Shown here: positions 5,596-26,717 of the stretch, piece by piece | Position numbering within the stretch: position 1 is the stretch's first letter | How the letters are laid out: every line of letters starts with the position of its first letter | Assembly (NCBI GenBank): GCA_013821825.1 | Contig: PNJK01000013.1 | Coordinates: 1-64,000 of the forward strand | Direction of reading: 5' to 3' | DNA from: Rhodobacter sp. | GTDB taxonomy: Bacteria > Pseudomonadota > Alphaproteobacteria > Rhodobacterales > Rhodobacteraceae | DNA length: 64,000 nucleotides | Notes under the pieces: generated by a model | Databases searched by the model: none | The model's input: only the letters and a program-made list of their open reading frames with translations | Told to the model about the DNA's origin: nothing | Position numbers and translations under genes: made by a program

Positions 5596-7044
5596 CTAGC
5601 GTCGCCAGAAGCTGGGCAGGACCAGCACCAGAACCGCCAGCAGGCCCAGGCGGCCAAGGATCATGCACAGCGTCATGATCGCGATCGCGCCGGGCGGGAA
5701 GTCGACGAACGTGCCGGTGCGCTCGACCAGTGGGCCGAAGCCGTAGCCGACATTGCCAAGGGTCGTCCAGACCGCGAACAGCGCCGAGACCGTATCGACG
5801 CCAAAAAGGGTCAGCGCCACGCTCATGATCCCAAGGATCAGGATGTAGCTCGACACGAACAGGATGAGCGCGTTCAGCACGTCCTCCTCGACCGAGCGCC
5901 CGTCATAGCGGATCGGGTCCACGCTGGAAGGGCTGCCGATCCGCCGGATCTCGCGCTTCAGGACGGCCGCCACCAGCTGGACGCGGAAAACCGACAGCCC
6001 GGCGGCGGATGACCCGGAACAGGCCCCGATCACCCCGATCACGAAGGCCACCACCAACATCAGTCCGCCCCAGGTGGGGAAGGTGCCGGAAAAGAACCCG
6101 GACGAGGACATGATGGAGGTGAGGTTGAAGAGCGTCTCGCGGAAGGTCGGCTCCAGCGGTGCCCCGGTCGTCAGCACCCGCCAAACCCAGATCACGACGA
6201 CAGCAAAGCCAAGCCACAGCAGATAAGCCCGAGCCTGGCTGTCCTGCCACAAGGGCCGGGCCGAGCCGTTCACCAGCTGCACATAGCGGATATAGGGCAG
6301 GCTGCCCAAGATCATGAACAGCGCGCCGAAATACTCGCCGGCCCCGATGTACTTGTTGAAGGACTCATCCGACGGCGAAAAGCCGCCGGTTGCAATGGTC
6401 GCCAAGCCGTTCACCACCGCGTCGAGCGCAGTCATCCCGATGGCGGAATAGACCGCGATACAGGTCACCGTCAGCCCGAAATAGACGACGAGGAGCTGGC
6501 GGGCGATGTCGGTCGCGCGCGGCAGGGCCTTGCCGAATGTGTCGAAGCCTTCGGTGCGGAAAAACTGCATCCCGCCGATCCGCATCAGCGGCAGGAAGAT
6601 CATCGCGATGAAGGCGATACCGAGGCCTCCCAGCCAGTTCAGCATCCCCCGCCAAAGGTTCATGCCGATCGGCAGGTCGTCCAGCCCGTAGATCACCGTG
6701 GCCCCGGTCGTCGTGATGCCCGAAACCGCTTCGAAATAGGCGTGTAGCAGGCTGAGGCCCGGCGCGCCGATGTAAAAGGGCAGCGCGCCGAACAGCGGCA
6801 CCAGCGTCCAGATGCTCGCGGTCAGAAGATAGGCCTGCCGGGTGTCCAGCGACTTGCCCAGCGCATTGCCGGTGGACAGGGTCAAGGCACCACCGATCAC
6901 CCCGGTGATCGCGGCCGAGGCGGCAAAGGCGGCGCCGTTGTCCAGCCCGGCCCGCCAATCGATGACGCCAGGAGCCAGCATCAGGATCGCAAGCACGATC
7001 AGGATGCGGCCGATGACATAGGCGACGGGGCGGAGGTCAACCAT
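5596..7044 (-). CDS. trkH: TrkH family potassium transporter
   Basis: 482 residues, strongly hydrophobic throughout, about ten membrane segments as expected for four M1-P-M2 repeats. TrkH is the K+-translocating inner-membrane subunit of Trk systems and works with cytoplasmic TrkA, which is not in the window. Selectivity-loop-like segments include ITTTGATV (near residue 110), ATGGFSPS (near 220) and LGNVGYGFGP (near 430). Stand-alone gene; neighbours are unrelated. Confidence 0.93.
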   Translation of the reverse strand: MVDLRPVAYVIGRILIVLAILMLAPGVIDWRAGLDNGAAFAASAAITGVIGGALTLSTGNALGKSLDTRQAYLLTASIWTLVPLFGALPFYIGAPGLSLLHAYFEAVSGITTTGATVIYGLDDLPIGMNLWRGMLNWLGGLGIAFIAMIFLPLMRIGGMQFFRTEGFDTFGKALPRATDIARQLLVVYFGLTVTCIAVYSAIGMTALDAVVNGLATIATGGFSPSDESFNKYIGAGEYFGALFMILGSLPYIRYVQLVNGSARPLWQDSQARAYLLWLGFAVVVIWVWRVLTTGAPLEPTFRETLFNLTSIMSSSGFFSGTFPTWGGLMLVVAFVIGVIGACSGSSAAGLSVFRVQLVAAVLKREIRRIGSPSSVDPIRYDGRSVEEDVLNALILFVSSYILILGIMSVALTLFGVDTVSALFAVWTTLGNVGYGFGPLVERTGTFVDFPPGAIAIMTLCMILGRLGLLAVLVLVLPSFWRR

Positions 7045-7106: not shown

Positions 7107-8198
<1,092 letters not shown>

Positions 8199-8340
8199 GG
8201 GGAGTCCTTTCGGTTCAGGCAGGCAAAGCGGCGCTGCCGTCAATTTCAGACAATATACGCGGGAAGCCCGCCCCCGGATCACCCTGGTCCGCGACAAGCC
8301 AGCCAAGAAAACACCGTTCTTGCCGCAATCGCAAGCCCCT

Positions 8341-9522
8341 TCAGGCCCGAGCCAGCGCGCCTTGCAGATCCGCGATCAGATCGCCGGTGTCCTCCAGCCC
8401 CAACGACAGCCGGATCAGGCCCGGAGTGATCCCCAGCGCGTCCTTCAGGTCTTGCGGCAGGCGCTGGTGCGTGGTGGTGGCCGGATGGGTGGCGATGGTC
8501 TTGGCGTCGCCAAGGTTGTTGGAAATCTTGGTGATCTCAAGCGTGTTCATGAAGCGGAAGGCCGCTTCCTTGCCGCCCTTCACCTCGAACGTCACCAGAG
8601 TGCCGCCGGACCCCATCTGATCCATCGCCAACCCATGCTGCGGGTGGCTGGCAAGGCCCGGATAGATCACTCTGGACACCTTTTCATGCCCTTCCAGCGC
8701 CCGCGCCACGGCCAGCGCCGTATCCGCCATCGCCCGGCAGCGCAGATCCAGCGTCGCCATCCCGTTCAAGTGCATCCATGCGGTAAAAGGGCTCATCGAG
8801 CCGCCGGTGTGTTTCATGAACGGTTCCAGCACCTTGCGAACATAGTCGCGGGTGCCGCAGACCACGCCGCCCAAGGCACGGCCCTGCCCGTCGATATGCT
8901 TGGTGGTGGAATAGACCACAACATCCGCCCCCTGCTCTACCGCGCGCGAAAAGATCGGCGTGGCGAAGACGTTGTCGCAGATCACCAGCGCGCCCGCCGC
9001 GTGGGCGATCGCGCAGACCGACCGGATGTCGACCAGTTCCAGCGTCGGGTTCGACATCGATTCGAAGAACACCGCCTTGGTGCCGGGCGTGACGGCCTGC
9101 CGCCACTGGTCCAGATCGGCACCGTCAACGAAAGTGACCTTGACGCCAAAGCGTTGCAGCACCTCTTCCAGCACGTAAAGACAGGATCCAAACAGCGCCC
9201 GCGAGCTGACCACGTGGTCTCCCGCCCGCAGACAGGACATCAGCGCCCCGCTAACCGCCGCCATACCGCTCGCGGTGGCAAAGGCATCCTCGGTCCCCTC
9301 CAGCGCCGCGATGCGTTCCTCGAACATTCTGGTCGTGGGGTTGCCATAACGGGCATAGATGAACTCGTCCTCGCCCGCCTTGACGAAACGGGCTTCGGCG
9401 GCCTCGGCTGTTGGGTAGACAAAACCCTGGGTCAGAAAGATCGCCTCGGCCATCTCGCCATACTGGCTGCGGCGGGTGCCTTCATGCACGAGGCTCGTGC
9501 GGGTCTTCCAGTCTTTCGTCAT
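8341..9522 (-). CDS. metZ: O-succinylhomoserine sulfhydrylase
   Basis: 393 residues from ATG 9522 (GGGGAAG upstream). A PLP enzyme of the Cys/Met metabolism family: it makes homocysteine from O-succinylhomoserine and sulfide. Features seen: TRTSLVHEGTRRSQYGE at the start, YARYGNPTTRMFEERIAALEG, and the PLP lysine in STTKHIDGQGR (about K208). The leader carries a SAM-II riboswitch and an intrinsic terminator, which supports a methionine-biosynthesis role. The choice of MetZ over MetB/MetC rests on general resemblance and the riboswitch. Confidence 0.93.
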   Translation of the reverse strand: MTKDWKTRTSLVHEGTRRSQYGEMAEAIFLTQGFVYPTAEAAEARFVKAGEDEFIYARYGNPTTRMFEERIAALEGTEDAFATASGMAAVSGALMSCLRAGDHVVSSRALFGSCLYVLEEVLQRFGVKVTFVDGADLDQWRQAVTPGTKAVFFESMSNPTLELVDIRSVCAIAHAAGALVICDNVFATPIFSRAVEQGADVVVYSTTKHIDGQGRALGGVVCGTRDYVRKVLEPFMKHTGGSMSPFTAWMHLNGMATLDLRCRAMADTALAVARALEGHEKVSRVIYPGLASHPQHGLAMDQMGSGGTLVTFEVKGGKEAAFRFMNTLEITKISNNLGDAKTIATHPATTTHQRLPQDLKDALGITPGLIRLSLGLEDTGDLIADLQGALARA

Positions 9523-9559
9523 CGCGCCACTTCCCCGATCATGACCCCGCAAGGCCAAG

Positions 9560-9591
9560 AAAAAACCCCGGCAAACCGAAAGGTGCCGGGG
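9560..9591 (-). terminator. intrinsic terminator in the metZ leader
   Basis: On the minus strand an 8-bp stem CCCCGGCA/TGCCGGGG with a 10-nt loop is followed by six T. It lies between the SAM-II aptamer and the metZ start, so it is the likely off-switch formed when SAM is bound. Confidence 0.85.
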
Positions 9592-9603
9592 CCATTGCCC
9601 TTC

Positions 9604-9660
9604 ACCTCTTTAGCGGCTTGTTTAACGTGGCCCGCAATCCGGTAACAAAGCGCCACGACC
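9604..9660 (-). ncRNA. SAM-II riboswitch
   Basis: The minus strand reads TCGTGGCGCTTTG...ATTGCGGGCCACGTTAAACAAG...CCGCTAAAGAGG. This matches the SAM-II aptamer: P1 TCGTGG/CCACG, the invariant GTTAAACAAG, and the terminal CGCTAAAG that forms the pseudoknot. SAM-II elements control methionine genes in alphaproteobacteria. Here it precedes metZ by about 80 nt with a terminator between. Confidence 0.93.
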
Positions 9661-9765
9661 GTTTCCATACGCCCGGGCACCGGCGGGGTCAAGCAGGCGC
9701 CAACATTGCGGCTTTGCGCCACCGTCACCCTTCCGTCATGACCGCGTCACGCGCGCGTTGCCGCC

Positions 9766-10110
9766 TTGCTGCAGGGCTGCAACCAGAGCAGCAACAGCCG
9801 ATCAACAGGCCATGACCGACGATCCCCGCCGGATTCGCGCCGATGCCGGGCCTTACAGGCTGGCGCTGGACCGGGACCGTTCGAAGAGGCGCTCGGCTGC
9901 TTTGACACCGCCATCGCGCTGGCGCCCGGCTTCCGGCGCGCCTACCGCAACAAGATGTCGGCGCTGGCAGACCTGGGCCGCTTCGAAGAGGTGGTGGCCC
10001 TTGGGGATGAGGCGCTGCGCCCCGGCACGATACCGAGTTCGAACCCCCGGATCGAAGAAGACATCCTGTCGCGCCGCCTGCTGGCTCTTGCCAGCTGCAC
10101 GCCAATGTGA
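9766..10110 (+). pseudogene. TPR-repeat protein, probably frameshifted
   Basis: The second half reads as tetratricopeptide repeat: FEEALGCFDTAIALAPGF, RRAYRNKMSALADLGRFEE, VVALGDEAL. The first half of this frame is low quality. An ATG at 9811 in another frame gives MTDDPRRIRADAGPYRLALD, which flows into the TPR frame if one base is gained or lost near 9878. Likely a short TPR protein with a frameshift, or a remnant. A sequencing slip cannot be excluded. Confidence 0.4.
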
Positions 10111-10176
10111 AGAAAATTGCCTGTCTGGTGGCAAGCTGAACCGCCAAACCCCGCCTTCAGGCAGGGTCCACCGCTC

Positions 10177-10812
10177 TCAGACCGGCTGGCCGTCGTCGTC
10201 CAGGTTGATGACTGTCAGGACCAGAGCCCGCAGCACCATGTGCCCAAGCAGCGGAAGCAGTGCCCAGAATACCAGCCATTGCGATGCGGCGACGCTGTAG
10301 ATCAGCGTTTCGTTCAGCAAAAGGAAGCTGAAGTTGTAGACCACCATCATCCGGGTCAGGTTCGGCAGATGGCAGCGCATCTCGGCGTCGGGCCAGAAGC
10401 TGGCGGCGGTTGCCGTACGGCCCTTCATGACATCCACCAGGAAGATGCCGCCGATGATCACGTAGAACGCGCTTTGCATGCGCTGGCTCCACAGCGGATC
10501 GTCCGCACCGACCAGCACCAGCAACGGCAGGCCGGCGAACAGCACCGCAAGCATCGCAGCCTGCGTTGCCGAATAGCGGGTGAGCATCCGCAGCAACATG
10601 CCTTCGAAGCCCAGTCCTATCCGGACAGCCAGAGCGGCAAGGAAAGCTGTCACGAAGGCTTGATCGCCAGAATCGGAGCCCAGCAGAACCGACAGCACCG
10701 GATATCCGACCAGAAGCACCGCGCCCGGCAGGTAAAGACCGCGCGACATCGGCGGCAGGTCCTGAAACAGACTCAGGAAAATGCGGACAAGATCGGCGGG
10801 ATGACGGTACAT
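10177..10812 (-). CDS. multi-TM membrane protein, unknown function
   Basis: 211 residues from ATG 10812, preceded by GAGGGGG. Hydrophobic segments are at about residues 28-48, 55-75, 88-106, 115-135, 155-175 and 180-200, giving five or six membrane helices. The C-terminus NLDDDGQPV is acidic. The overall look recalls Yip1-type proteins but no diagnostic motif was recognised. It lies downstream of yciB on the same strand, 97 bp away, and may share its transcript. Confidence 0.7.
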   Translation of the reverse strand: MYRHPADLVRIFLSLFQDLPPMSRGLYLPGAVLLVGYPVLSVLLGSDSGDQAFVTAFLAALAVRIGLGFEGMLLRMLTRYSATQAAMLAVLFAGLPLLVLVGADDPLWSQRMQSAFYVIIGGIFLVDVMKGRTATAASFWPDAEMRCHLPNLTRMMVVYNFSFLLLNETLIYSVAASQWLVFWALLPLLGHMVLRALVLTVINLDDDGQPV

Positions 10813-10908
10813 GGCGAACCCCCTCAAGTTCATGATCGGGATTAGAGGCCGATCAAGGCAGTGCTGGGGCAGGAATCGCACCGTTAAGGGGCATTCCCGT
10901 GCAATGCG

Positions 10909-11517
10909 TCACGAGTCCTCGTCCTGGGGTTCGATGATGTATCGGTTCAGCATGGTGATCTGCACCATCAGGAACAAGAACAGCGCGACGGGCATCGCGA
11001 AGGTCTCAAGCTTGACCCAAAGCTCGGTCGACTGGGTGCGCCAGATCACCTCGTTGGCGATGGCAAGGCCCGCGAACATCAGCGCAAGGCGCCGGGTCAG
11101 GATCATCCAACCTTCTGGTTTCATTGGCAAAGCTTCAGCCATCACCCATTGCAGCAAGCTGCGTCCGCGCACCAACCCGGCGCCAAGGATCAGCGCGAAA
11201 GTGCCGTAGACGATGGTCGTCTTCATCTTGAAGAAGCTCTCGTCGTTGAACCACGCGGTCAGCCCGCCGAAGAAGACCACCATCACCGCAACGAAGATCT
11301 GCATCCGGCTCAGGGCCCCCGTCAGCCACCATAGCGCCGCAATTGAGGCCAAAAGCAGCGGCACCAGAACCACGGCGGCCACAATAAATCCCGAATACTC
11401 GGTACCGCCGACCAGATAGGTCTCGTCCTTGATCCACATGTAGATCACGAAGAAGACCAGCGTCGGCCCCAGTTCCAGCACCTGCTTCAGCACCGGGTTG
11501 ATCTTGCGTTCGGCCAT
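10909..11517 (-). CDS. yciB: inner membrane-spanning protein YciB / septation protein A
   Basis: 202 residues with five predicted membrane helices. LELGPTLVFFVIYM near the N-terminus, TALSRMQ-like ALSRMQIFVAVMVVFFGGLTAWFNDESFFKMKTT split across residues 68-100, and NEVIWR (near 155) fit the YciB/IspZ family. These proteins act at the inner membrane in envelope maintenance and cell division. Downstream of ftsY and an unidentified secreted protein on the same strand. Confidence 0.92.
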   Translation of the reverse strand: MAERKINPVLKQVLELGPTLVFFVIYMWIKDETYLVGGTEYSGFIVAAVVLVPLLLASIAALWWLTGALSRMQIFVAVMVVFFGGLTAWFNDESFFKMKTTIVYGTFALILGAGLVRGRSLLQWVMAEALPMKPEGWMILTRRLALMFAGLAIANEVIWRTQSTELWVKLETFAMPVALFLFLMVQITMLNRYIIEPQDEDS

Positions 11518-11633
11518 GGCTGCGCTAATTCCTTTCTGTCCATCCGAGGCCTGTCGCAGACCTTTTCCTTCATGTGGCGTGAAACCAGCCCCGGATCAAG
11601 ACGACACGGCGTTCAGTGCCCTTTGTGGGCAGG

Positions 11634-12515
11634 TCACGGCTGCCAGCTCGCTTCCAGCCGTGCATCGGCGAGCAAACGTTTCAGGGCATCGGGACCGGTA
11701 GGATCGTCCGACAGCCCGGCAAGCAGCAGCCGCGACGCGCCGATCCCTTCGGTGGCGGTCAGGGACAGCCGCAACCGGCCACGCCCCTGCGGCAGACCGG
11801 CGACCATCCGGGCCAGAGCCGCGCGGCTTTCCGGCGAAACCATCGCTTCAGGCAACGCTTCGACAATAGCGCGAAGCGCCGCCCGCGTCGCATCGATTGC
11901 CTCGGCTTCCGTCCCGCCTTCGGCCAGCCGCTCTCCGGCCATCGCCAGTGCCAGGCGCAGCAGGCGGCCGTCACTCCGCCAGTCGAGGTCAAGCGCCGTC
12001 AGGCTGCCGCCGGCAAAAGAGGCGAAGGTCAGCCCCGCCCCGCGGATATCGGCGGCAAGCATGACTTCAGTCCCGCCGGACAGGCGCAGCACGACCTCGC
12101 GCAGTTCCAGCGTCTCTGTGTCCGCATCGACCGACGCCACGAAGCGCAGGTCAGCACTTTGCAGCTGAAGCATCGCGCGGATCCGGTCATCCATGGTGCG
12201 GTCGCCAATCCGGGGCCTTGCCCGCAGACCAGCAGCCTCGAGCTCGACCGACACGGGAACACCGTCCGCAACCGTCCCGCGCAAACGCAGGCGTTCGACC
12301 GAGATCTCGGGGAAACCGGGATCCGATCCTTTGAGTATAGCCCCATCCAGCACGCACCACCCGGCCTCGGGACCGGCAGGCGGCGCTGTCAGCGTCTGCC
12401 CCCCGATGGATCGCAGCGCCGCAGTCAGGGCCGTGCAATCGGCAGAAACCGTCTCTGCCGCCGCGGGCAAGGACAGGCCAAGGATGATGACCGAGACGCC
12501 AGGGAGTATCCTCAT
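11634..12515 (-). CDS. secreted protein of unknown function
   Basis: 293 residues from ATG 12515. Residues 1-20 (MRILPGVSVIILGLSLPAAA) are a signal peptide with an AxA-like site before ETVSADC. The mature part alternates strand-like hydrophobic segments and ends with two alanine-rich helical stretches. Cysteines occur near DCTAL and GWCVLDG. I do not recognise the family. It lies between ftsY and yciB on the same strand. The 197 bp between it and ftsY carry a coding-like frame without its own stop (GQALCDAVWTDLASRVMGYA), so the gene may once have been longer or two genes. Confidence 0.7.
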   Translation of the reverse strand: MRILPGVSVIILGLSLPAAAETVSADCTALTAALRSIGGQTLTAPPAGPEAGWCVLDGAILKGSDPGFPEISVERLRLRGTVADGVPVSVELEAAGLRARPRIGDRTMDDRIRAMLQLQSADLRFVASVDADTETLELREVVLRLSGGTEVMLAADIRGAGLTFASFAGGSLTALDLDWRSDGRLLRLALAMAGERLAEGGTEAEAIDATRAALRAIVEALPEAMVSPESRAALARMVAGLPQGRGRLRLSLTATEGIGASRLLLAGLSDDPTGPDALKRLLADARLEASWQP

Positions 12516-15144: not shown

Positions 15145-15202
15145 CTGGCTTTCCCCGGCTGGCTCTGGCACTCTTCCCCAAATGCCCTGACCGGAGCCCT
15201 TG

Positions 15203-15607
15203 ATGCGATACCTGCTTGCCGCCCTGATCCTTGCCGCCACACCCGCCGCAAGTCCTGCCTTTGCCCAAACCCCGCTCACCGGCGAGGAGTTCGACTCGAA
15301 CACCGTGGGTGAGACGATCACCTATGATTACGGCGGCGGCCTGTTCGGAACCGAGGAATACCTCGAAGGCCGCCGCGTCCGCTGGGCCTTTGACGGCGAA
15401 CTGTGCATCTATGGCGTCTGGTACCAGAAAGACGACCAGATCTGCTTTGAATATGAGGGCGATCCAGACCCCGCCTGCTGGCAATACTTCCTCGACGGCG
15501 ACCAGATCCGCGGCCGCTACATGGGCGAAGGCGGCGGCTGGGAAATCCTTGAATCCTCGCGCGATGGCGGCCCGCTGCCCTGCGCTGGTCCCGACGTCGG
15601 TGTCTGA
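15203..15607 (+). CDS. secreted four-cysteine protein, array copy 1
   Basis: 134 residues. Signal peptide MRYLLAALILAATPAAS with cleavage near AFAQ. The mature part follows a pattern shared by four consecutive genes: PLTGEEFD, a glycine/tyrosine-rich YDYGGGLFGTEEYLEGRRVRW, C-x2-G-x-W, ICFEYEG, ACWQY, and PLPCAGP-D-GV near the end. Four conserved cysteines suggest two disulfides in the periplasm. Function unknown; the acidic, aromatic mature domain could bind a ligand or cation (speculation). Confidence 0.75.
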   Translation: MRYLLAALILAATPAASPAFAQTPLTGEEFDSNTVGETITYDYGGGLFGTEEYLEGRRVRWAFDGELCIYGVWYQKDDQICFEYEGDPDPACWQYFLDGDQIRGRYMGEGGGWEILESSRDGGPLPCAGPDVGV

Positions 15608-15611
15608 AGGG

Positions 15612-16010
15612 ATGCGGTCTGCCCTTTGCGCCATCGCCCTTGTTGGCACGACCACGGCAGCGCTGGCGCAGACGCCCCTGTCGGCGGATGAATTCGAGGC
15701 ACATGTCCTTGGCAAGACCCTGACCTACCGCCAGTTCGCCGGCGTCTTCGGGATCGAGGAATACCTTCCCGGCCGTCAGGTCCGCTGGAGCGTGGCCGAA
15801 AACCTCTGCCAGTATGGCGGCTGGTATCCGCAAGGGGACACGATCTGCTTTGTCTACGAATACAGCCCCACGCCGCATTGCTGGGCTTTCTGGCTGGAAG
15901 ACGGCTCTCTGGTGGCGGTGTCGGTCAACGATCTGCCGGGGGCCGAGCTTTACGAGGTGGACCAAAGCGAGGTGCCGCTACCCTGCCCCGGACCGGACAT
16001 CGGAGCCTGA
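15612..16010 (+). CDS. secreted four-cysteine protein, array copy 2
   Basis: 132 residues from ATG 15612, 4 nt after copy 1. Signal peptide MRSALCAIALVGTTTAALAQ. It repeats the family pattern: PLSADEFEAHVLGKTLTYRQ, FGIEEYLPGRQVRW, NLCQYGGWYPQGDTICF, HCWAF, PLPCPGPDIGA. Closest to copies 1 and 3 by eye. Same operon; unknown function. Confidence 0.75.
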   Translation: MRSALCAIALVGTTTAALAQTPLSADEFEAHVLGKTLTYRQFAGVFGIEEYLPGRQVRWSVAENLCQYGGWYPQGDTICFVYEYSPTPHCWAFWLEDGSLVAVSVNDLPGAELYEVDQSEVPLPCPGPDIGA

Positions 16011-16011
16011 G

Positions 16012-16404
16012 GTGCGGGCTCTTATGGTCAGCCTCTGCCTTGCCGCCTCTGCCGCCCAGGCCGAAGCGCCACTGTCGGCAGAAGCCTTCGATGCCCTGAC
16101 CCAGGGCCGCACCATGACTTGGGCCGAATTCGGCCAGGTCTACGGGGTGGAGCAATACCTTCCGGACCGCCGCGTGCGCTGGACGGTCCTTGGTGGAGAT
16201 TGCAGGACCGGGCACTGGTATGCCGACGGCCCGGCAATCTGCTTTCTTTACGAAGACCGGCTTGACCCGGTCTGCTGGGAAGTCACCGAAGGACCAAGTG
16301 GCCTTCTGGCCCGCCTGACCAGCAACCCGAAAGAAGTCGATCCCGTGGTGATCGAAGAAACGACCGACCGGCTTGCCTGCTTTGGCCCGGAGGTCGGAGC
16401 ATGA
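16012..16404 (+). CDS. secreted four-cysteine protein, array copy 3
   Basis: 130 residues from GTG 16012, preceded by GGAG and 1 nt after copy 2. The alternative ATG at 16024 would shorten the signal peptide VRALMVSLCLAASAAQA. Family pattern: PLSAEAFDALTQGRTMTW, YGVEQYLPDRRVRW, GDCRTGHWYADGPAICF, VCWEV, RLACFGPEVGA. All four cysteines are kept. Its stop overlaps the next start (ATGA). Confidence 0.75.
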   Translation: MRALMVSLCLAASAAQAEAPLSAEAFDALTQGRTMTWAEFGQVYGVEQYLPDRRVRWTVLGGDCRTGHWYADGPAICFLYEDRLDPVCWEVTEGPSGLLARLTSNPKEVDPVVIEETTDRLACFGPEVGA

Positions 16405-16796
16405 AGACCCTCACCTTGGCCCTCGCCCTCACCGCCCTGCCCGTTTCAGCGCTGGCCGAAGGCGACCCGCCGCTGGGCGCCGACGCCTTCGAGGCACTGG
16501 TTCAGGGCAAGACCATGGACACCCGTAATTCCGGCGGGCTTTACGGGGTAGAGACTTTCCTGCCCGGTCGCCGCGCGATCTGGCGCGATGCGACGCAATG
16601 CCTGGAAGGCACCTGGCGTGCCGAGGGCGATATGATCTGCTTTGACTATATTGGCGAGCCGAAGCCCTATTGCTGGAGCTATCACGACCGCGGCGGCTGG
16701 TTGATGGCCCGGCTGGACGGCGATCGGGCCACGGGTCCGATCCTGCTTTATCCGTCCAGGGACTTTGTCACCTGCGACGGCTTCCCCGTATCTTAG
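16401..16796 (+). CDS. secreted four-cysteine protein, array copy 4
   Basis: 131 residues. Signal peptide MKTLTLALALTALPVSALAE. The pattern is kept at the start (PPLGADAFEALVQGKTMD, YGVETFLPGRRAIW, TQCLEGTWRAEGDMICF, YCWSY), but the tail diverges: FVTCDGFPVS replaces the C-x-GP-x-GA end. It is the most divergent copy and the last gene before a double palindrome that likely ends the operon. Confidence 0.75.
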   Translation: MKTLTLALALTALPVSALAEGDPPLGADAFEALVQGKTMDTRNSGGLYGVETFLPGRRAIWRDATQCLEGTWRAEGDMICFDYIGEPKPYCWSYHDRGGWLMARLDGDRATGPILLYPSRDFVTCDGFPVS

Positions 16797-22693: not shown

Positions 22694-24937
22694 ATGCCCG
22701 AACGGACGGAAAGCGACAGTCGCAAGCTTCTGCGCCGTCTGCGCGACACCCTTGCCGTCCCCGGCAAGGGGCAGGACCGGCTTGACCAGATCACCCACCT
22801 CATCGCTGACAGCATGGGGACCGAGGTCTGCTCGATCTACCTCTTCCGCGATCCGGAAACGCTGGAGCTTTGTGCCACCGAAGGCCTGAAGAAGGCCGCC
22901 GTCCACAAGACCCGTATGAAGCTGGGCGAAGGCCTCGTCGGCCGCGTCGCCCGCAGCGGCATGCCGGTCAACACTGCCAACGCCCCCTCGGAACGCGGCT
23001 TTCGCTATATGCCCGAAACGGGGGAAGAACTTTACTCTTCCTTCCTGGGCATCCCGATCCAGCGGGTTGGCGAAAAGCTGGGCGTGCTGGTCGTGCAGTC
23101 GAAGACCGCCCGACAGTTTTCCGAAGATGACATCTATGCGTTGGACGTCGTGGCCATGGTGCTGGCCGAGATGACCGAACTTGGCGCCTTCACCGGTGAA
23201 GAAGGCGGCATGCGCGCGCTTCACAAGCAACCGGTGATGCTGCGCGGCACCTCGGGTCAGGAAGGCGCCGCCGAAGGCCGGGTCTGGCTGCACGAACCCC
23301 GCGTCGTGATCACCAACCCCGTCGCCGACGACCCCCTGACCGAGATCGACCGCATCCGCGACGCCGTGGGCCAGCTGCGCGTTTCAGTCGACGACCTGTT
23401 GTCCGCCGAAAGTCTGGACAAGGAGCAGAAGGCCGTCCTTGAAGCCTACCGGATGTTCGCCCATTCCCGCGGCTGGCTGCGCCGGATGGAAGAGGACATC
23501 ATGCGCGGCCTCTCGGCCGAGGCCGCGGTGGAAAAGGAACAGTCCGCCGCCCGCGCCCGCTTTGAACAGGTGCCCGACGCCTACTTGCGCGAACGGCTGT
23601 CCGATCTTGACGACCTCTCGAACCGCCTCTTGCGCATCCTGACCGGTCAGGGCCGCGACACCGGCGCCGAGATGCCTGAAAACCCCGTCCTTGTCGCCCG
23701 CAACATCGGTCCCGCCGAACTTCTGGAATACGGGCGCAAGTTGAAGGGCGTCGTCATGGACGAAGGCAGCGTCAGCAGCCATGCGGCTGTCGTCGCCCGC
23801 GCGCTGTCCATCCCGCTGGTGATCAACACCGAACGCATCACCGCCGAGGCGCTGAACGGCGACCCGATCCTTGTCGACGGCGATCAGGGCGTCGTCCACC
23901 TCCGCCCCGAGGAGGCCGTCGCCCGCGCCTTCCGCGACAAGATCGCCATGCAGGCCGAGGCGCAGAAACGCTACGCCTCGCTCCGGAGACTTCCCGCAAC
24001 GACAACCTGCGGCACCACCATCGCGTTGCACATGAATGCAGGGCTGATGGCCGACCTGCCCAGCCTTGAAAGCTCGGGCGCCGAAGGGGTCGGGCTCTTC
24101 CGCACCGAATTGCAGTTCCTCGTCCGTTCCAAGATGCCACAGCGCGCCGAACTGGCCCGGCTTTATGCCCGGGTGATGGACGCAGCCAAGGGCCAGCGCG
24201 TCGCCTTCCGAACGCTGGACATCGGGTCGGACAAGGTGCTGCCCTACCTCAAGCCGCAGGACGAACCGAACCCCGCAATGGGCTGGCGGGCGGTACGCGT
24301 CGGCCTCGACAAGCCCGGCGTTCTTCGGATGCAGTTGCAGGCCCTGATCCGCGCGGCAAACGGGCGGCACCTGACGGTGATGTTCCCGCTGGTCACCGAA
24401 CTGACCGAATTCCAGCAGGCCCGCGCCCATGTGCTGCGGGAACTGCACCGCGAAAAATCGCTTGGCCACCCGGTTCCGGAAAAGGTCGAGATCGGCGCGA
24501 TGATGGAAACGCCGTCGCTGGCTTTCGCGCCGAGAGCCTTCTTTGAACTGACCGATTTTGTATCCGTCGGCGGCAATGACCTGAAGCAGTTCTTCTTCGC
24601 TGCCGACCGCGAAAACGAACTGGTCCGCCGCCGCTATGACACGCTGAACCTGTCCTTCCTGACCTTCCTGGAACAGATCGTCGCCCGCTGCGCCGAGACG
24701 GACACGCCGCTTTCTTTCTGCGGCGAAGACGCGGGCCGCCCGATCGAAGCATTGGCCCTGGCCGCGATCGGCTTTCGCAGCCTCTCGATGCGCCCGGCCT
24801 CGGTTGGCCCGGTCAAGGCACTTCTGCGCCGGGTGAGCCTGACCGAGGCGCACGCCGTCATCGACAGGGCCCGCGAAGAAGGGGCGGAAAGCGCAAGGCC
24901 GCTGCTGATGGACTGGCTGGCGTCGCAGGGCGGCTGA
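22694..24937 (+). CDS. ptsP: PEP-protein phosphotransferase PtsP (EI-Ntr)
   Basis: 747 residues. First phosphotransferase of the nitrogen-related PTS: it takes phosphate from PEP and passes it to NPr. Order: GAF domain (about 25-165), PTS EI N-domain, phospho-His in SSHAAVVARAL (about H363), then the PEP-binding barrel with GVGLFRTELQFL, MVMFPLVTE-like MFPLVTELTEFQ, VEIGAMMETPSLA and SVGGNDLKQF. In this last motif the usual T of GTNDL is G. It generally signals nitrogen or carbon state. Confidence 0.96.
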   Translation: MPERTESDSRKLLRRLRDTLAVPGKGQDRLDQITHLIADSMGTEVCSIYLFRDPETLELCATEGLKKAAVHKTRMKLGEGLVGRVARSGMPVNTANAPSERGFRYMPETGEELYSSFLGIPIQRVGEKLGVLVVQSKTARQFSEDDIYALDVVAMVLAEMTELGAFTGEEGGMRALHKQPVMLRGTSGQEGAAEGRVWLHEPRVVITNPVADDPLTEIDRIRDAVGQLRVSVDDLLSAESLDKEQKAVLEAYRMFAHSRGWLRRMEEDIMRGLSAEAAVEKEQSAARARFEQVPDAYLRERLSDLDDLSNRLLRILTGQGRDTGAEMPENPVLVARNIGPAELLEYGRKLKGVVMDEGSVSSHAAVVARALSIPLVINTERITAEALNGDPILVDGDQGVVHLRPEEAVARAFRDKIAMQAEAQKRYASLRRLPATTTCGTTIALHMNAGLMADLPSLESSGAEGVGLFRTELQFLVRSKMPQRAELARLYARVMDAAKGQRVAFRTLDIGSDKVLPYLKPQDEPNPAMGWRAVRVGLDKPGVLRMQLQALIRAANGRHLTVMFPLVTELTEFQQARAHVLRELHREKSLGHPVPEKVEIGAMMETPSLAFAPRAFFELTDFVSVGGNDLKQFFFAADRENELVRRRYDTLNLSFLTFLEQIVARCAETDTPLSFCGEDAGRPIEALALAAIGFRSLSMRPASVGPVKALLRRVSLTEAHAVIDRAREEGAESARPLLMDWLASQGG

Positions 24938-24972: not shown

Positions 24973-26238
24973 TCAGCCTCCGGCCTTTGCCTCGATCAGC
25001 CCGGCATGGGCAAAGTGGTCCAGAAGCCGGCCAAGATCTGCGGCGATCCGGTCATGCCCTACCTCCGGGAAGGTATCGACCAGCAGCGTCTCCAATTCCG
25101 GCCGCGTCACCGGCACGTCCAGTACCCCCCAGATAGCGGCGGCGATTGGGTCCATCCGGTGAATTGCCCAGCCTTCCACATCGGCCAGGTAAAGACTGCC
25201 GCCGATGGTCCGCTCGACCGTGCCCTGCCTTTGTCCAAGAAGCGCATCCGGGGCCCGGGCCCTCCGCACGCCTTGGCCGATGCCGGCCTTCCGGAATGGC
25301 AGGGCTGGCGCCGGTGCGTCCGGCGCGCCGATGTCCGGCCAGCGGGAAAAGGCGGTTTCAAGACAGGCAACCGCATCGGAAAGCGCCGAAAAGGAAAGCC
25401 TGAACACGGGCAGGTTCGACAATGACGCGGCCATGGCCTGAAGAATGTCGGCGGAATGCCGGTCGCGGGTAAAGTTCTGATGCAACAGCGCATCCATGGC
25501 GACATCCGGCGTGACAGGGCATAGGCGCGCCGGAACAGGCACCTCATGTCGGTCAAGGATTACGAAGGCCCCGACTGGCAAGGCGGCACCCTGCGCGGGC
25601 TGCCCCTTCAGTGTGAGGTACTTGTATTGCCGGTTCCGGGGGCCGTCCAAAGCATCCACCCAATCGCGGAAGCCCCTTTCGATGCTCGCGGGCAATGGCA
25701 GACGCAGACGCGGTGCGATGCCCATGGAATAGCCGAAGGCGCGGTTGTCCGCCGCGAAGCACAACGGCAGCACATCGTCACCGTAAAGCGCATGCCCGGC
25801 CCGGGCGAGAGCGACAGAAAGCGTGCTCTTTCCCGCCCGCCTGACACTCGGGAACACCACCAATCGCCCCGCCATCGCCACGCCCGCTGCGTGCAGGCAG
25901 ATCAGGCTTGGATCCTCGGCCGGCAGGGCCAGTGCAAGGGCCGCAATCATGTCACACAGCGCATTGACCGGATCATGCCGGCGCGCAGGCGTTGCCTCGA
26001 CATGGCTTTGGCACAACAGCAGGGACTCGCCCGCGTCGGACCGGATCGAGAAGAAGGGTACTGCAGCCGGATCGGCTTCCCGAAACTCATGCGGCCATCC
26101 GGCCGCCACCACCGGCAAAAGCAGCCGGACAGCTTCGGCCCCGTCCAAGCGAAGCGGCGCTGCGATCCCCCGAAAGACGATATCCTGCGCCACTGGACCT
26201 GCCCTTGCCTCTCCCTTCAGTTCAGTAGGCCGCGCCAA
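24973..26238 (-). CDS. HPr-kinase-like protein fused to a PqqD/RRE domain
   Basis: 421 residues from TTG 26238; no better start exists after the in-frame TGA that ends the upstream gene 18 nt away. No clear SD, so coupling to the upstream gene is likely. Residues about 110-260 resemble HprK-type kinases: LHAAGVAM, the P-loop-like PSVRRAGKSTL (130-140, first Gly of GxxxxGKS is Ser) and GDDVLPL (153-159). Residues about 340-420 are a PqqD-like domain (GGSLYLADVEGWAIHRMDP, AAAIWGVLD, ELETLLVDTFPE, DLGRLLDHFAHAGLIE), the fold that binds leader peptides in RiPP pathways. HprK homologues phosphorylate peptide serines in lasso-peptide clusters. With the serine-rich neighbour, a peptide kinase is plausible (inference). 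Confidence 0.75.
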   Translation of the reverse strand: MARPTELKGEARAGPVAQDIVFRGIAAPLRLDGAEAVRLLLPVVAAGWPHEFREADPAAVPFFSIRSDAGESLLLCQSHVEATPARRHDPVNALCDMIAALALALPAEDPSLICLHAAGVAMAGRLVVFPSVRRAGKSTLSVALARAGHALYGDDVLPLCFAADNRAFGYSMGIAPRLRLPLPASIERGFRDWVDALDGPRNRQYKYLTLKGQPAQGAALPVGAFVILDRHEVPVPARLCPVTPDVAMDALLHQNFTRDRHSADILQAMAASLSNLPVFRLSFSALSDAVACLETAFSRWPDIGAPDAPAPALPFRKAGIGQGVRRARAPDALLGQRQGTVERTIGGSLYLADVEGWAIHRMDPIAAAIWGVLDVPVTRPELETLLVDTFPEVGHDRIAADLGRLLDHFAHAGLIEAKAGG

Positions 26239-26256
26239 AGGGGGATGGTCAAGAAA

Positions 26257-26526
26257 TCAGGGCTGCGTGCATTCGGTGTCGGACGGGCCCGAGCAGGTGC
26301 TCGGTGTGCTGGCGTCGCTGGATGAGGACGGCGCGCTTGGCTCGGACGATCCGCTCGCCTCGGAAGGGGCACTTGAGCTGCTGGCCGGGCTTGAACTGCT
26401 TGCTTCGCTTGCCCGAGCAACACTCAGGGTGGTCAACGCGGGTGCTGCATAGGCGCCTAATGCCAAGGCTCCGATCCCGACAAGGGTCTTGCGGCGCGAC
26501 AGGGTAGTCTCGTTTGAATCGCTCAT
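26257..26526 (-). CDS. Tat-type exported serine-rich 89-residue protein
   Basis: Start ATG 26526 with a strong AAGGAG site. Residues 1-39: MSDSNETTLSRRKTLVG then a hydrophobic core to SVARA, i.e. a twin-arginine-type signal (SRRKTL) with cleavage near residue 39. The remaining roughly 50 residues contain 21 Ser plus Pro, Ala, Thr and acidic residues in SSSS blocks, and end with two Cys in a CSGPSDTEC-like tail. It is in the same frame as, and 18 nt before, the kinase/PqqD gene. Candidate substrate of that protein; otherwise a low-complexity surface peptide. No homologue recognised. Confidence 0.7.
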   Translation of the reverse strand: MSDSNETTLSRRKTLVGIGALALGAYAAPALTTLSVARASEASSSSPASSSSAPSEASGSSEPSAPSSSSDASTPSTCSGPSDTECTQP

Positions 26527-26717
26527 TTCCGTCTCCTTTTTCCCCCACGGTCCCCTACGGTATGGCACCGTGCTCTCTCTTGGTAAGTGTCGAATTGCGG
26601 CAAGAAAAAGGCGATTGCTGCCGGCAATTGGTTTAGATGGGCGAATTAAACCATAGGTATATGGGCTTTCCTGCCGATCTGGGCCCCCTCGGGGCAGCAG
26701 CGATAGTTCAAAGGCCC

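Follow-up and report, generated by a model that had tools for sequence, protein, structure and literature searches.

In a 64,000-nucleotide stretch of Rhodobacter sp. DNA (GenBank assembly GCA_013821825.1, contig PNJK01000013.1, positions 1 to 64,000; hereafter the window), two adjacent genes on the minus strand encode a small precursor-like protein with a twin-arginine translocation (Tat) type signal and an HprK-like kinase. The kinase is fused to a PqqD-type domain, the recognition element (RRE) known from ribosomally synthesized and post-translationally modified peptides (RiPPs). The pair exists as described and is common across Rhodobacteraceae, and scattered relatives occur outside this family. 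We consider it probable that it constitutes a minimal two-gene phosphopeptide system, in which the small protein would be phosphorylated, or polyphosphorylated, on Ser in the cytoplasm under the guidance of the RRE and would then be exported by the Tat pathway. RiPP leaders and export signals are usually held to be separate, and here some 35 consecutive residues seem to act as both.

The gene pair and its conservation

Both open reading frames (ORFs) described in the original prediction, which had been made from the letters of the window, are present at 24973-26526 in one shared frame. A recount of the 89-residue protein agrees with the SRRKTL motif and the 21 Ser announced for its last 49 residues, and its stop is indeed separated by 18 nt, in frame, from the TTG of the 421-residue ORF. 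This TTG is doubtful as the start of the kinase. The GTG at 26193 appears likelier (406 residues, gap of 63 nt), because several close relatives begin there (e.g. L062, VAQDIVFRG) and because the first ten model residues counted from the TTG have an average predicted local distance difference test score (pLDDT) of 55. The ribosome site ahead of the ATG of the small gene was rated good. The elements of the pair are the following.

26257..26526, minus strand: precursor-like small protein, 89 residues, with Tat-type signal, Ser-rich body and C-terminal Cys pair
24973..26238, minus strand: HprK-like kinase fused to a PqqD/RRE domain, 421 residues counted from the TTG
26533..26538, minus strand: Shine-Dalgarno-like AAGGAG, six bases 5' of the small-gene ATG (from the sequence)

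Among 295 genomes of the family, 40 gave some kinase match and 24 were counted as carrying the kinase of the window; in one of these the gene is split into two pieces, and in another it lies at the end of a contig. Public genomes were also scanned and yielded 65 named loci, mostly from Tabrizicola, Aliiroseovarius, Yoonia, Shimia and other Rhodobacteraceae. Over the family, the class and the named loci, 77 distinct fused-kinase genes were retained (duplicates were removed on the last 120 residues of the kinase, and L075 was dropped at a contig edge). For 76 of them, the upstream sequence extends over 300 nt or more, and in 76/76 of these eligible loci the 1 kb upstream encodes a protein combining a Tat signal with Y-x-x-P; the exact spacing RR-x13-Y-x2-P is found in 75 of them, L033 having x16. 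The adjacency in relatives, which had been proposed as a check on the pair, is thus kept. As a background, the leader pattern gave 23 matches in the remainder of the same loci (2.0 million residues over six frames), and only the one in L121 looks genuine. The latter is a second leader motif (RRRMLMRLGLAAGAVYAAP) near position 6200; the kinase of this Rhizobiaceae locus follows some 1.6 kb downstream.

A leader profile of 38 columns, A3, was also run independently of the kinase. In the family it matched 25 of the 295 genomes, i.e. all 24 kinase genomes and G007 (partial match, E 7.5e-5), and none of the 16 genomes with weaker kinase matches. In the class, the leader was found in 30 of 372 genomes, 29 of which have a kinase at 1e-20; the two class samples differ (385 genomes for the kinase, 372 for the leader), with 29 genomes shared. 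Kinase genomes outside the leader list are G397, G478, G603, G664, G668, G672 and G673, two of which, G664 and G672, carry the partner beside the kinase and were perhaps not part of the leader sample; G407 is the leader genome outside the kinase list. In the phylum, 8 of 299 genomes match, including the window's genome and G321, and two genomes from outside the class, G714 and G746, carry a fused kinase directly beside the leader gene. The match in G848 is without Y-x-x-P and no kinase lies in the stretch fetched. Altogether, the leader is nearly, though not wholly, specific to kinase genomes.

The partial match in G007 (L236 4030-6540) corresponds to a leader-like protein without Y-x-x-P, followed by a 358-residue protein and then by a 387-residue protein with the reversed domain order, PqqD first and HprK second (HGA, GSGKS, ED). 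By eye, this domain-swapped gene adjoins apparent polysaccharide genes.

The kinase-RRE enzyme and the composite leader

The enzyme combines the features listed below.

25339..26190, minus strand: HprK-like kinase region, bounds approximate (3tqf, 1ko7 and 1jb1 by sequence; 1kkl by fold)
25891..25893, minus strand: putative catalytic His116, invariant in alignment A4 (65 sequences)
25822..25851, minus strand: P-loop PSVRRAGKST with K137; AGKS is invariant in A4
25774..25779, minus strand: putative catalytic Asp154-Asp155, invariant in A4
24985..25242, minus strand: PqqD-like RRE domain, strands then three helices

Pfam PF05402 (PqqD) matches residues 351-415 with 27.7 bits for a cut-off of 23.4. 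The C-terminal part of the family profile matches solved RREs (TbiB1 5v1u, 1.6e-9; LppB 9x8z, 9.9e-8; 9x90, 1.2e-5; TfuB1 6jx3, 2.6e-5) and its N-terminal part the HPr kinases 3tqf, 1ko7, 1jb1 and 2qmh (E 0.00085 to 0.0073). The AlphaFold2 model of the window protein, computed with 65 sequences, has a pLDDT of 94.1 and a predicted template modelling score of 0.91, and shows strands between residues 333 and 362, then three helices between 364 and 411. A PqqD-like fold had been expected at about 340-420; profile search and AlphaFold2 together predict it at residues 333-418. The HprK-like/PqqD fusion of the original prediction, with its PSVRRAGKST and its PqqD domain, therefore stands, apart from the doubtful start of the 421-residue ORF. 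With the full model, Foldseek retrieved HprK and phosphoenolpyruvate carboxykinase folds, and no RRE appeared in the best 50 of its 303 matches.

H116, A135-G136-K137-S138, D154 and D155 are invariant in the 65 fused kinases of A4, an alignment from which fused kinases sharing more than 85% likeness, sequences containing masked letters and the three entries L010, L075 and L116 were excluded. A His-Lys-Asp-Asp set is required by lasso-peptide kinases (PMC9266682). On its sequence, the kinase is HprK-like but falls outside the HprK_rel_A equivalog, because it scores 44.9 bits against a cut-off of 200. HPr-rel-A systems (NCBIfam TIGR04352/TIGR04353) likewise associate an HprK-related kinase with a PqqD protein; however, relatives of the window kinase also lie far under the curated cut-offs (40 for L080 and 43.3 for L129 against 200, and 20.8 against 35 for the separate PqqD protein of L129). 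Filing under HPr-rel-A was ruled out on these scores.

The small protein can be divided as follows.

26410..26526, minus strand: leader, Tat-type signal peptide, residues 1-39, ending in ARA with a putative cleavage site (profile A3)
26491..26496, minus strand: twin arginine R11-R12
26434..26451, minus strand: Y26-x-x-P29-x-L31, proposed RRE-binding motif (lasso/LPP leader motif in PMC13381572)
26395..26400, minus strand: S43-S44, at Tyr+17/+18, best candidate phosphoacceptors
26296..26409, minus strand: Ser-rich body, residues 40-77
26269..26295, minus strand: C-terminal Cys pair CSGPSDTEC (C78, C86), directly followed by TQP at the C-terminus

The original prediction was silent on two of these elements, Y26-x-x-P29-x-L31 in the signal and the pair C78/C86. 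Recognition of YxxP by RREs has been characterised (PMC12710340). The sequence bound by discrete lasso RREs is [Y/W]xxPx[L/V/I/A/F/Y], and in the linear polyphosphorylated peptide (LPP) system of Paenibacillus efficient binding between RRE and precursor requires YxxP (PMC13381572). In the window protein, YxxP is located within the hydrophobic part of the Tat signal, whose hallmarks can be read from the sequence, namely a twin-arginine n-region, an h-region and an A-x-A end. The consensus of 86 distinct upstream signals is [ST]RRxALx[RK][IL]GxxAxxAYxxPx[LF]TxLSxAxAS; they were collected by a pattern demanding R[RK], Y and P, so that these positions were preset, and RR is found in 86/86. Thus the Tat signal appears to be the recognition leader itself, beyond a mere exit tag, and a site for the RRE seems to be built into it.

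Searches of Pfam and NCBIfam with the small protein yielded formate_TAT alone, at a weak 20.6 bits for a cut-off of 48.45, NCBIfam gave no match for four of its relatives, and a search of the PDB with the leader profile returned nothing relevant to the leader. A chance ORF of low complexity is ruled out by the conserved leader and the fixed spacing. The leader is also what is constant in the partners, whose Ser fraction spans 0.04-0.52, and a Ser-rich body was discarded as a defining feature on this ground. The bodies show some order of their own (statistics given without L010 and L101, which contain masked letters). In 73 partners of fused kinases, Ser/Thr recur every third residue, with mean observed/expected ratios of 1.89 at lag 3 and 1.77 at lag 6, for 0.71-0.84 at lags 1, 2, 4 and 5. 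Exactly two Cys are present in 60 of these 73 distinct partners and none in the other 13, and all 87 distinct bodies counted hold either two Cys or none. The two-Cys bodies suggest that a disulfide could form.

As regards the phosphoacceptor, the LPP kinase places several phosphates onto one Ser, core S3, and the leader Tyr is at -16, so that the phosphorylated Ser is Tyr+18 (PMC13381572). We examined 28 partners poor in Ser/Thr (less than 20% Ser+Thr, a chosen limit), and in 25 of them a Ser/Thr occurs between Tyr+17 and Tyr+20, frequently within P-[ST]-x-C. Because of the LPP site and of these 25 partners, the first Ser after the signal is favoured as the candidate acceptor over the SSSS blocks; further Ser of the body beyond S43/S44 could perhaps serve as additional acceptors.

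Proposed mechanism and alternative explanations

We propose the following course of events. In the cytoplasm, the PqqD/RRE domain would bind YxxPxL of the signal peptide, probably through a leader strand joining its sheet. The fused HprK-like domain would then move phosphate from ATP to at least one Ser just past the signal (S43/S44, perhaps also in the body), and several phosphates per site are conceivable, as with the LPP and lasso kinases. After release by the kinase, TatC would take the protein and the signal would be cut after ARA, so that the periplasm or the cell surface would receive a phosphorylated, unfolded peptide ending in a Cys pair. Its biological role could lie in envelope signalling or in a surface property. 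In the window's genome, TatC is found in two pieces on two contigs. The leader-guided serine kinase of the original prediction thus gains from the conservation of the pair, the RRE fold, the HprK catalytic set and the RRE motif of the leader, and this gain does not extend to phosphorylation itself or to the SSSS blocks as its targets.

The interaction was also modelled in tandem. The stop between the two genes being in frame, its TGA was read as Gly to give one chain of 517 residues, and the input contained 45 rows, 18 of which were tandem reads, the window's included. In the resulting AlphaFold2 model, the leader forms a helix at residues 2-22 and a strand at 31-36, just past Y26-x-x-P29, and pLDDT is below 50 over residues 39-107. 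The strand weakly supports a pairing of the leader with the RRE sheet.

Several points weigh against RRE-guided phosphorylation followed by Tat export. The h-region of the signal would be needed by the RRE and by TatC alike, and in the tandem model the leader, taken by tens of residues, reaches a pLDDT of no more than about 60-76. Among the 28 Ser/Thr-poor partners, several of which are closely related, L038, L040 and L055 are without Ser/Thr at Tyr+15 to +21, and a Ser/Thr stands exactly at Tyr+18 in only 2, for 10 at +17 and 11 at +19. The 76 eligible loci stem from related species and hence are not independent trials, and the line of about 55 bits dividing the kinase from weaker matches was set after the list had been seen. 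A genome of the same genus, G191, is without both genes. Among kinases lacking a fused PqqD, only 14/28 are adjoined by the partner (a group of 31 minus L021, L024 and L076, which are cut fused genes and all have the motif; L053 is a chance match), and in several genomes of the class the partner is 25-119 kb off or on another contig. Finally, three of the eight phylum matches, G722, G726 and G798 (L226-L228), have a Tat signal with Y-x-x-P at the same spacing on what appear by eye to be oxidoreductases, and the 3.1 kb fetched contain no kinase.

Four other explanations were weighed. The one that survives best, to which we nevertheless grant only a minor share of likelihood, is that the kinase is a gatekeeper: it would hold the signal and phosphorylate nearby in order to time Tat export, and the body would be a flexible stalk for the conserved C-terminus. 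This would fit the conservation of the leader and the C-terminal Cys pair while the body varies (Ala-, Gly-, Pro- or Arg-rich triplets), as well as the Ser/Thr retained near the signal in the 25 Ser/Thr-poor partners. On the other hand, the periodicity of Ser/Thr at lag 3 exceeds the order that a stalk requires.

It is improbable that the modification goes beyond simple Ser phosphorylation, with the phosphate serving as the attachment point for a sugar added by an enzyme of the NTP_transf_5 type, as proposed for pseudomycoidin, for which PsmN acts after PsmK (PMC9266682). Its Pfam family, PF14907, was found in 24 of 31 kinase genomes chosen by hand (17/18 non-fused, 7/13 fused), and in several genomes its gene is beside the non-fused kinase. 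However, it is absent from the window's genome and missing in 6 of the 13 fused-kinase genomes (G241, G093, G135, G175, G451 and G714).

Still less credit can be given to the small protein as a further-processed bioactive peptide, of the lasso or lanthionine type, with phosphorylation as one step of several. The two-or-none Cys rule and the P-[ST]-x-C of distant relatives could be taken in its favour, but Cys pairs equally suit a periplasmic disulfide. Moreover, of 26 clusters of neighbours present in at least 4 of the 65 named loci, 13 were scanned with one protein each, and no peptide cyclase, lyase or leader/signal peptidase was found among them.

Lastly, we rejected an HPr kinase of the nitrogen phosphotransferase system, acting on a regulator tied to the adjoining ptsP, with an unrelated small protein: ptsP (22694-24937) is a convergent neighbour, its cluster occurs in 10 of the 65 named loci (adjoining the kinase in 8) and NF003883 (HPr kinase-related) matches the kinase weakly (13.9 bits for 252), but the C-terminal domain of canonical HPr kinase/phosphorylase, PF07475, gave no match to the window kinase at E up to 1 and belongs to a separate gene on contig C15 of the same genome, and 55 of the 65 named loci, a few of which are truncated, are without the ptsP cluster, while the small protein is found in all 76 eligible ones.

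Known systems, further leader proteins and neighbouring genes

The nearest known system is LPP (LppA/LppK/LppB) of Bacillota, described in 2026 (PMC13381572). Both have an HprK-like kinase with the His-Lys-Asp-Asp set, a PqqD-type RRE and a leader with YxxPx[hydrophobic], a candidate Ser about 18 residues past the Tyr, a variable C-terminus and no macrolactam cyclase. They differ in that the RRE is discrete in LPP and fused to the kinase here, a discrete RRE being nonetheless found in the non-fused relatives. The leader of the present pair is a Tat signal that recurs on PepSY-like and subtilase proteins, and the small protein has a Ser-rich body with a Cys pair. LPP has a SipW-like peptidase and an MsbA-like pump, neither of which was found among the neighbours scanned here (membrane domains were not sought by name), as well as an NTP (nucleoside triphosphate) transferase, for which PF14907 has no counterpart in the window's genome. 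The text of PMC13381572 makes no mention of twin-arginine, the Tat pathway, signal peptide, Pseudomonadota or Proteobacteria. The pair would thus operate like LPP, yet fails several of its defining features, and LPP membership was ruled out on the discrete RRE, the peptidase, the pump and the NTP transferase.

Lasso-peptide kinases (PadeK, ThcoK, SyanK and PsmK, with B1 RREs) share the His-Lys-Asp-Asp kinase and the YxxP leader. In contrast, the asparagine-synthase-like cyclase and the B2 peptidase of lasso clusters are absent among the window's neighbours and the conserved clusters scanned, and no lasso core is known. Another likeness is found in precursors with Sec signals and DUF2063-associated RREs (PMC12710340), where an RRE is also combined with a precursor whose N-terminus is a signal peptide; there, however, the signal is of the Sec and not of the Tat type, and a specific recognition motif was not found. 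The word "kinase" is absent from the main text of that paper. Among the open-licence literature matches listed, none was seen to describe a Tat leader combined with an RRE, or a kinase and a small protein paired in this way.

If our reading is true, Tat would be the export route for a family of phosphopeptides, and the pair would offer a direct test of a modification enzyme and a translocase sharing one signal. It would also carry LPP-like chemistry from Bacillota into Pseudomonadota, supply a likely substrate for HprK-like kinases scoring below existing family models (three tested), and tie such kinases to a two-component system, making their function assayable by genetics.

The leader is indeed not confined to the small protein. 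In 24 of the 65 named loci, the next gene encodes a protein of 167-228 residues in which this leader is joined, through a linker rich in Ser/Pro or in Gly, to a PepSY-like C-terminus. Pfam support for PepSY is weak, with 4/5 members matched at E up to 10 (best E 0.0017) and 15 against 24 bits for L080. An OmpR-type regulator is at +2 in 26/65 and a histidine kinase at +3 in 25/65, and the three genes are all in place in 22/65; regulator and histidine kinase were checked with Pfam in L080. This locus shows the five-gene set at 7500-11799, in the order leader protein, kinase-RRE, PepSY-like leader protein, OmpR-type regulator and histidine kinase. In G135 and G026, the leader is borne by subtilisin-like proteases (PF00082 tested on L219 of G026). 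These are located at L221 4020-5336 and L219 9154-10536, the L221 copy directly before the small gene and the kinase. In the window's genome, the A3 profile detected a single leader protein.

These sequences suggest that several exported proteins could be served by one kinase. One could even imagine a leader code, in which a Tat signal with an RRE site would mark Ser-rich peptides, the PepSY-like partners of a two-component system and subtilisin-like proteases within one cell for phosphorylation by a single cytoplasmic kinase before Tat export, as a dedicated pathway that would tune envelope signalling, a tentative idea that we judge somewhat more doubtful than plausible.

Other associations were noted around leader genes. 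In L205, L206, L211, L213, L217, L128, L131 and L132, leader proteins or non-fused kinases are near hldE-like genes (PfkB plus cytidylyltransferase-like, tested on L206), and some of these loci also have gmhA-like genes of ADP-heptose synthesis, by eye. L207, L209 and L216 have two tandem leader proteins with FPS[NGAD]C, which adjoin a protein of 1768-1977 residues with calcium-binding-type repeats, again by eye. An ATP-binding cassette ATPase cluster, C4, is present among the neighbours of 11 loci, at scattered positions and in either orientation.

Weaker HprK-like matches have surroundings of their own. In L025 and L028 (G047 and G101), a small Ser-rich or Gly-rich upstream ORF begins with RR or DRR, and Y-x-x-P is absent at the usual place. 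In L026, L029 and L030, such matches adjoin genes that, judged by eye, resemble the asparagine-synthase type, an arrangement known from lasso clusters.

In the window itself, the direct neighbours of the pair are ptsP and a malonyl-CoA synthase-like gene. Further away, on the plus strand at 15200-16796, four related genes of about 130 residues lie in tandem, with signal-like N-termini and about 35-45% likeness by pairwise BLAST.

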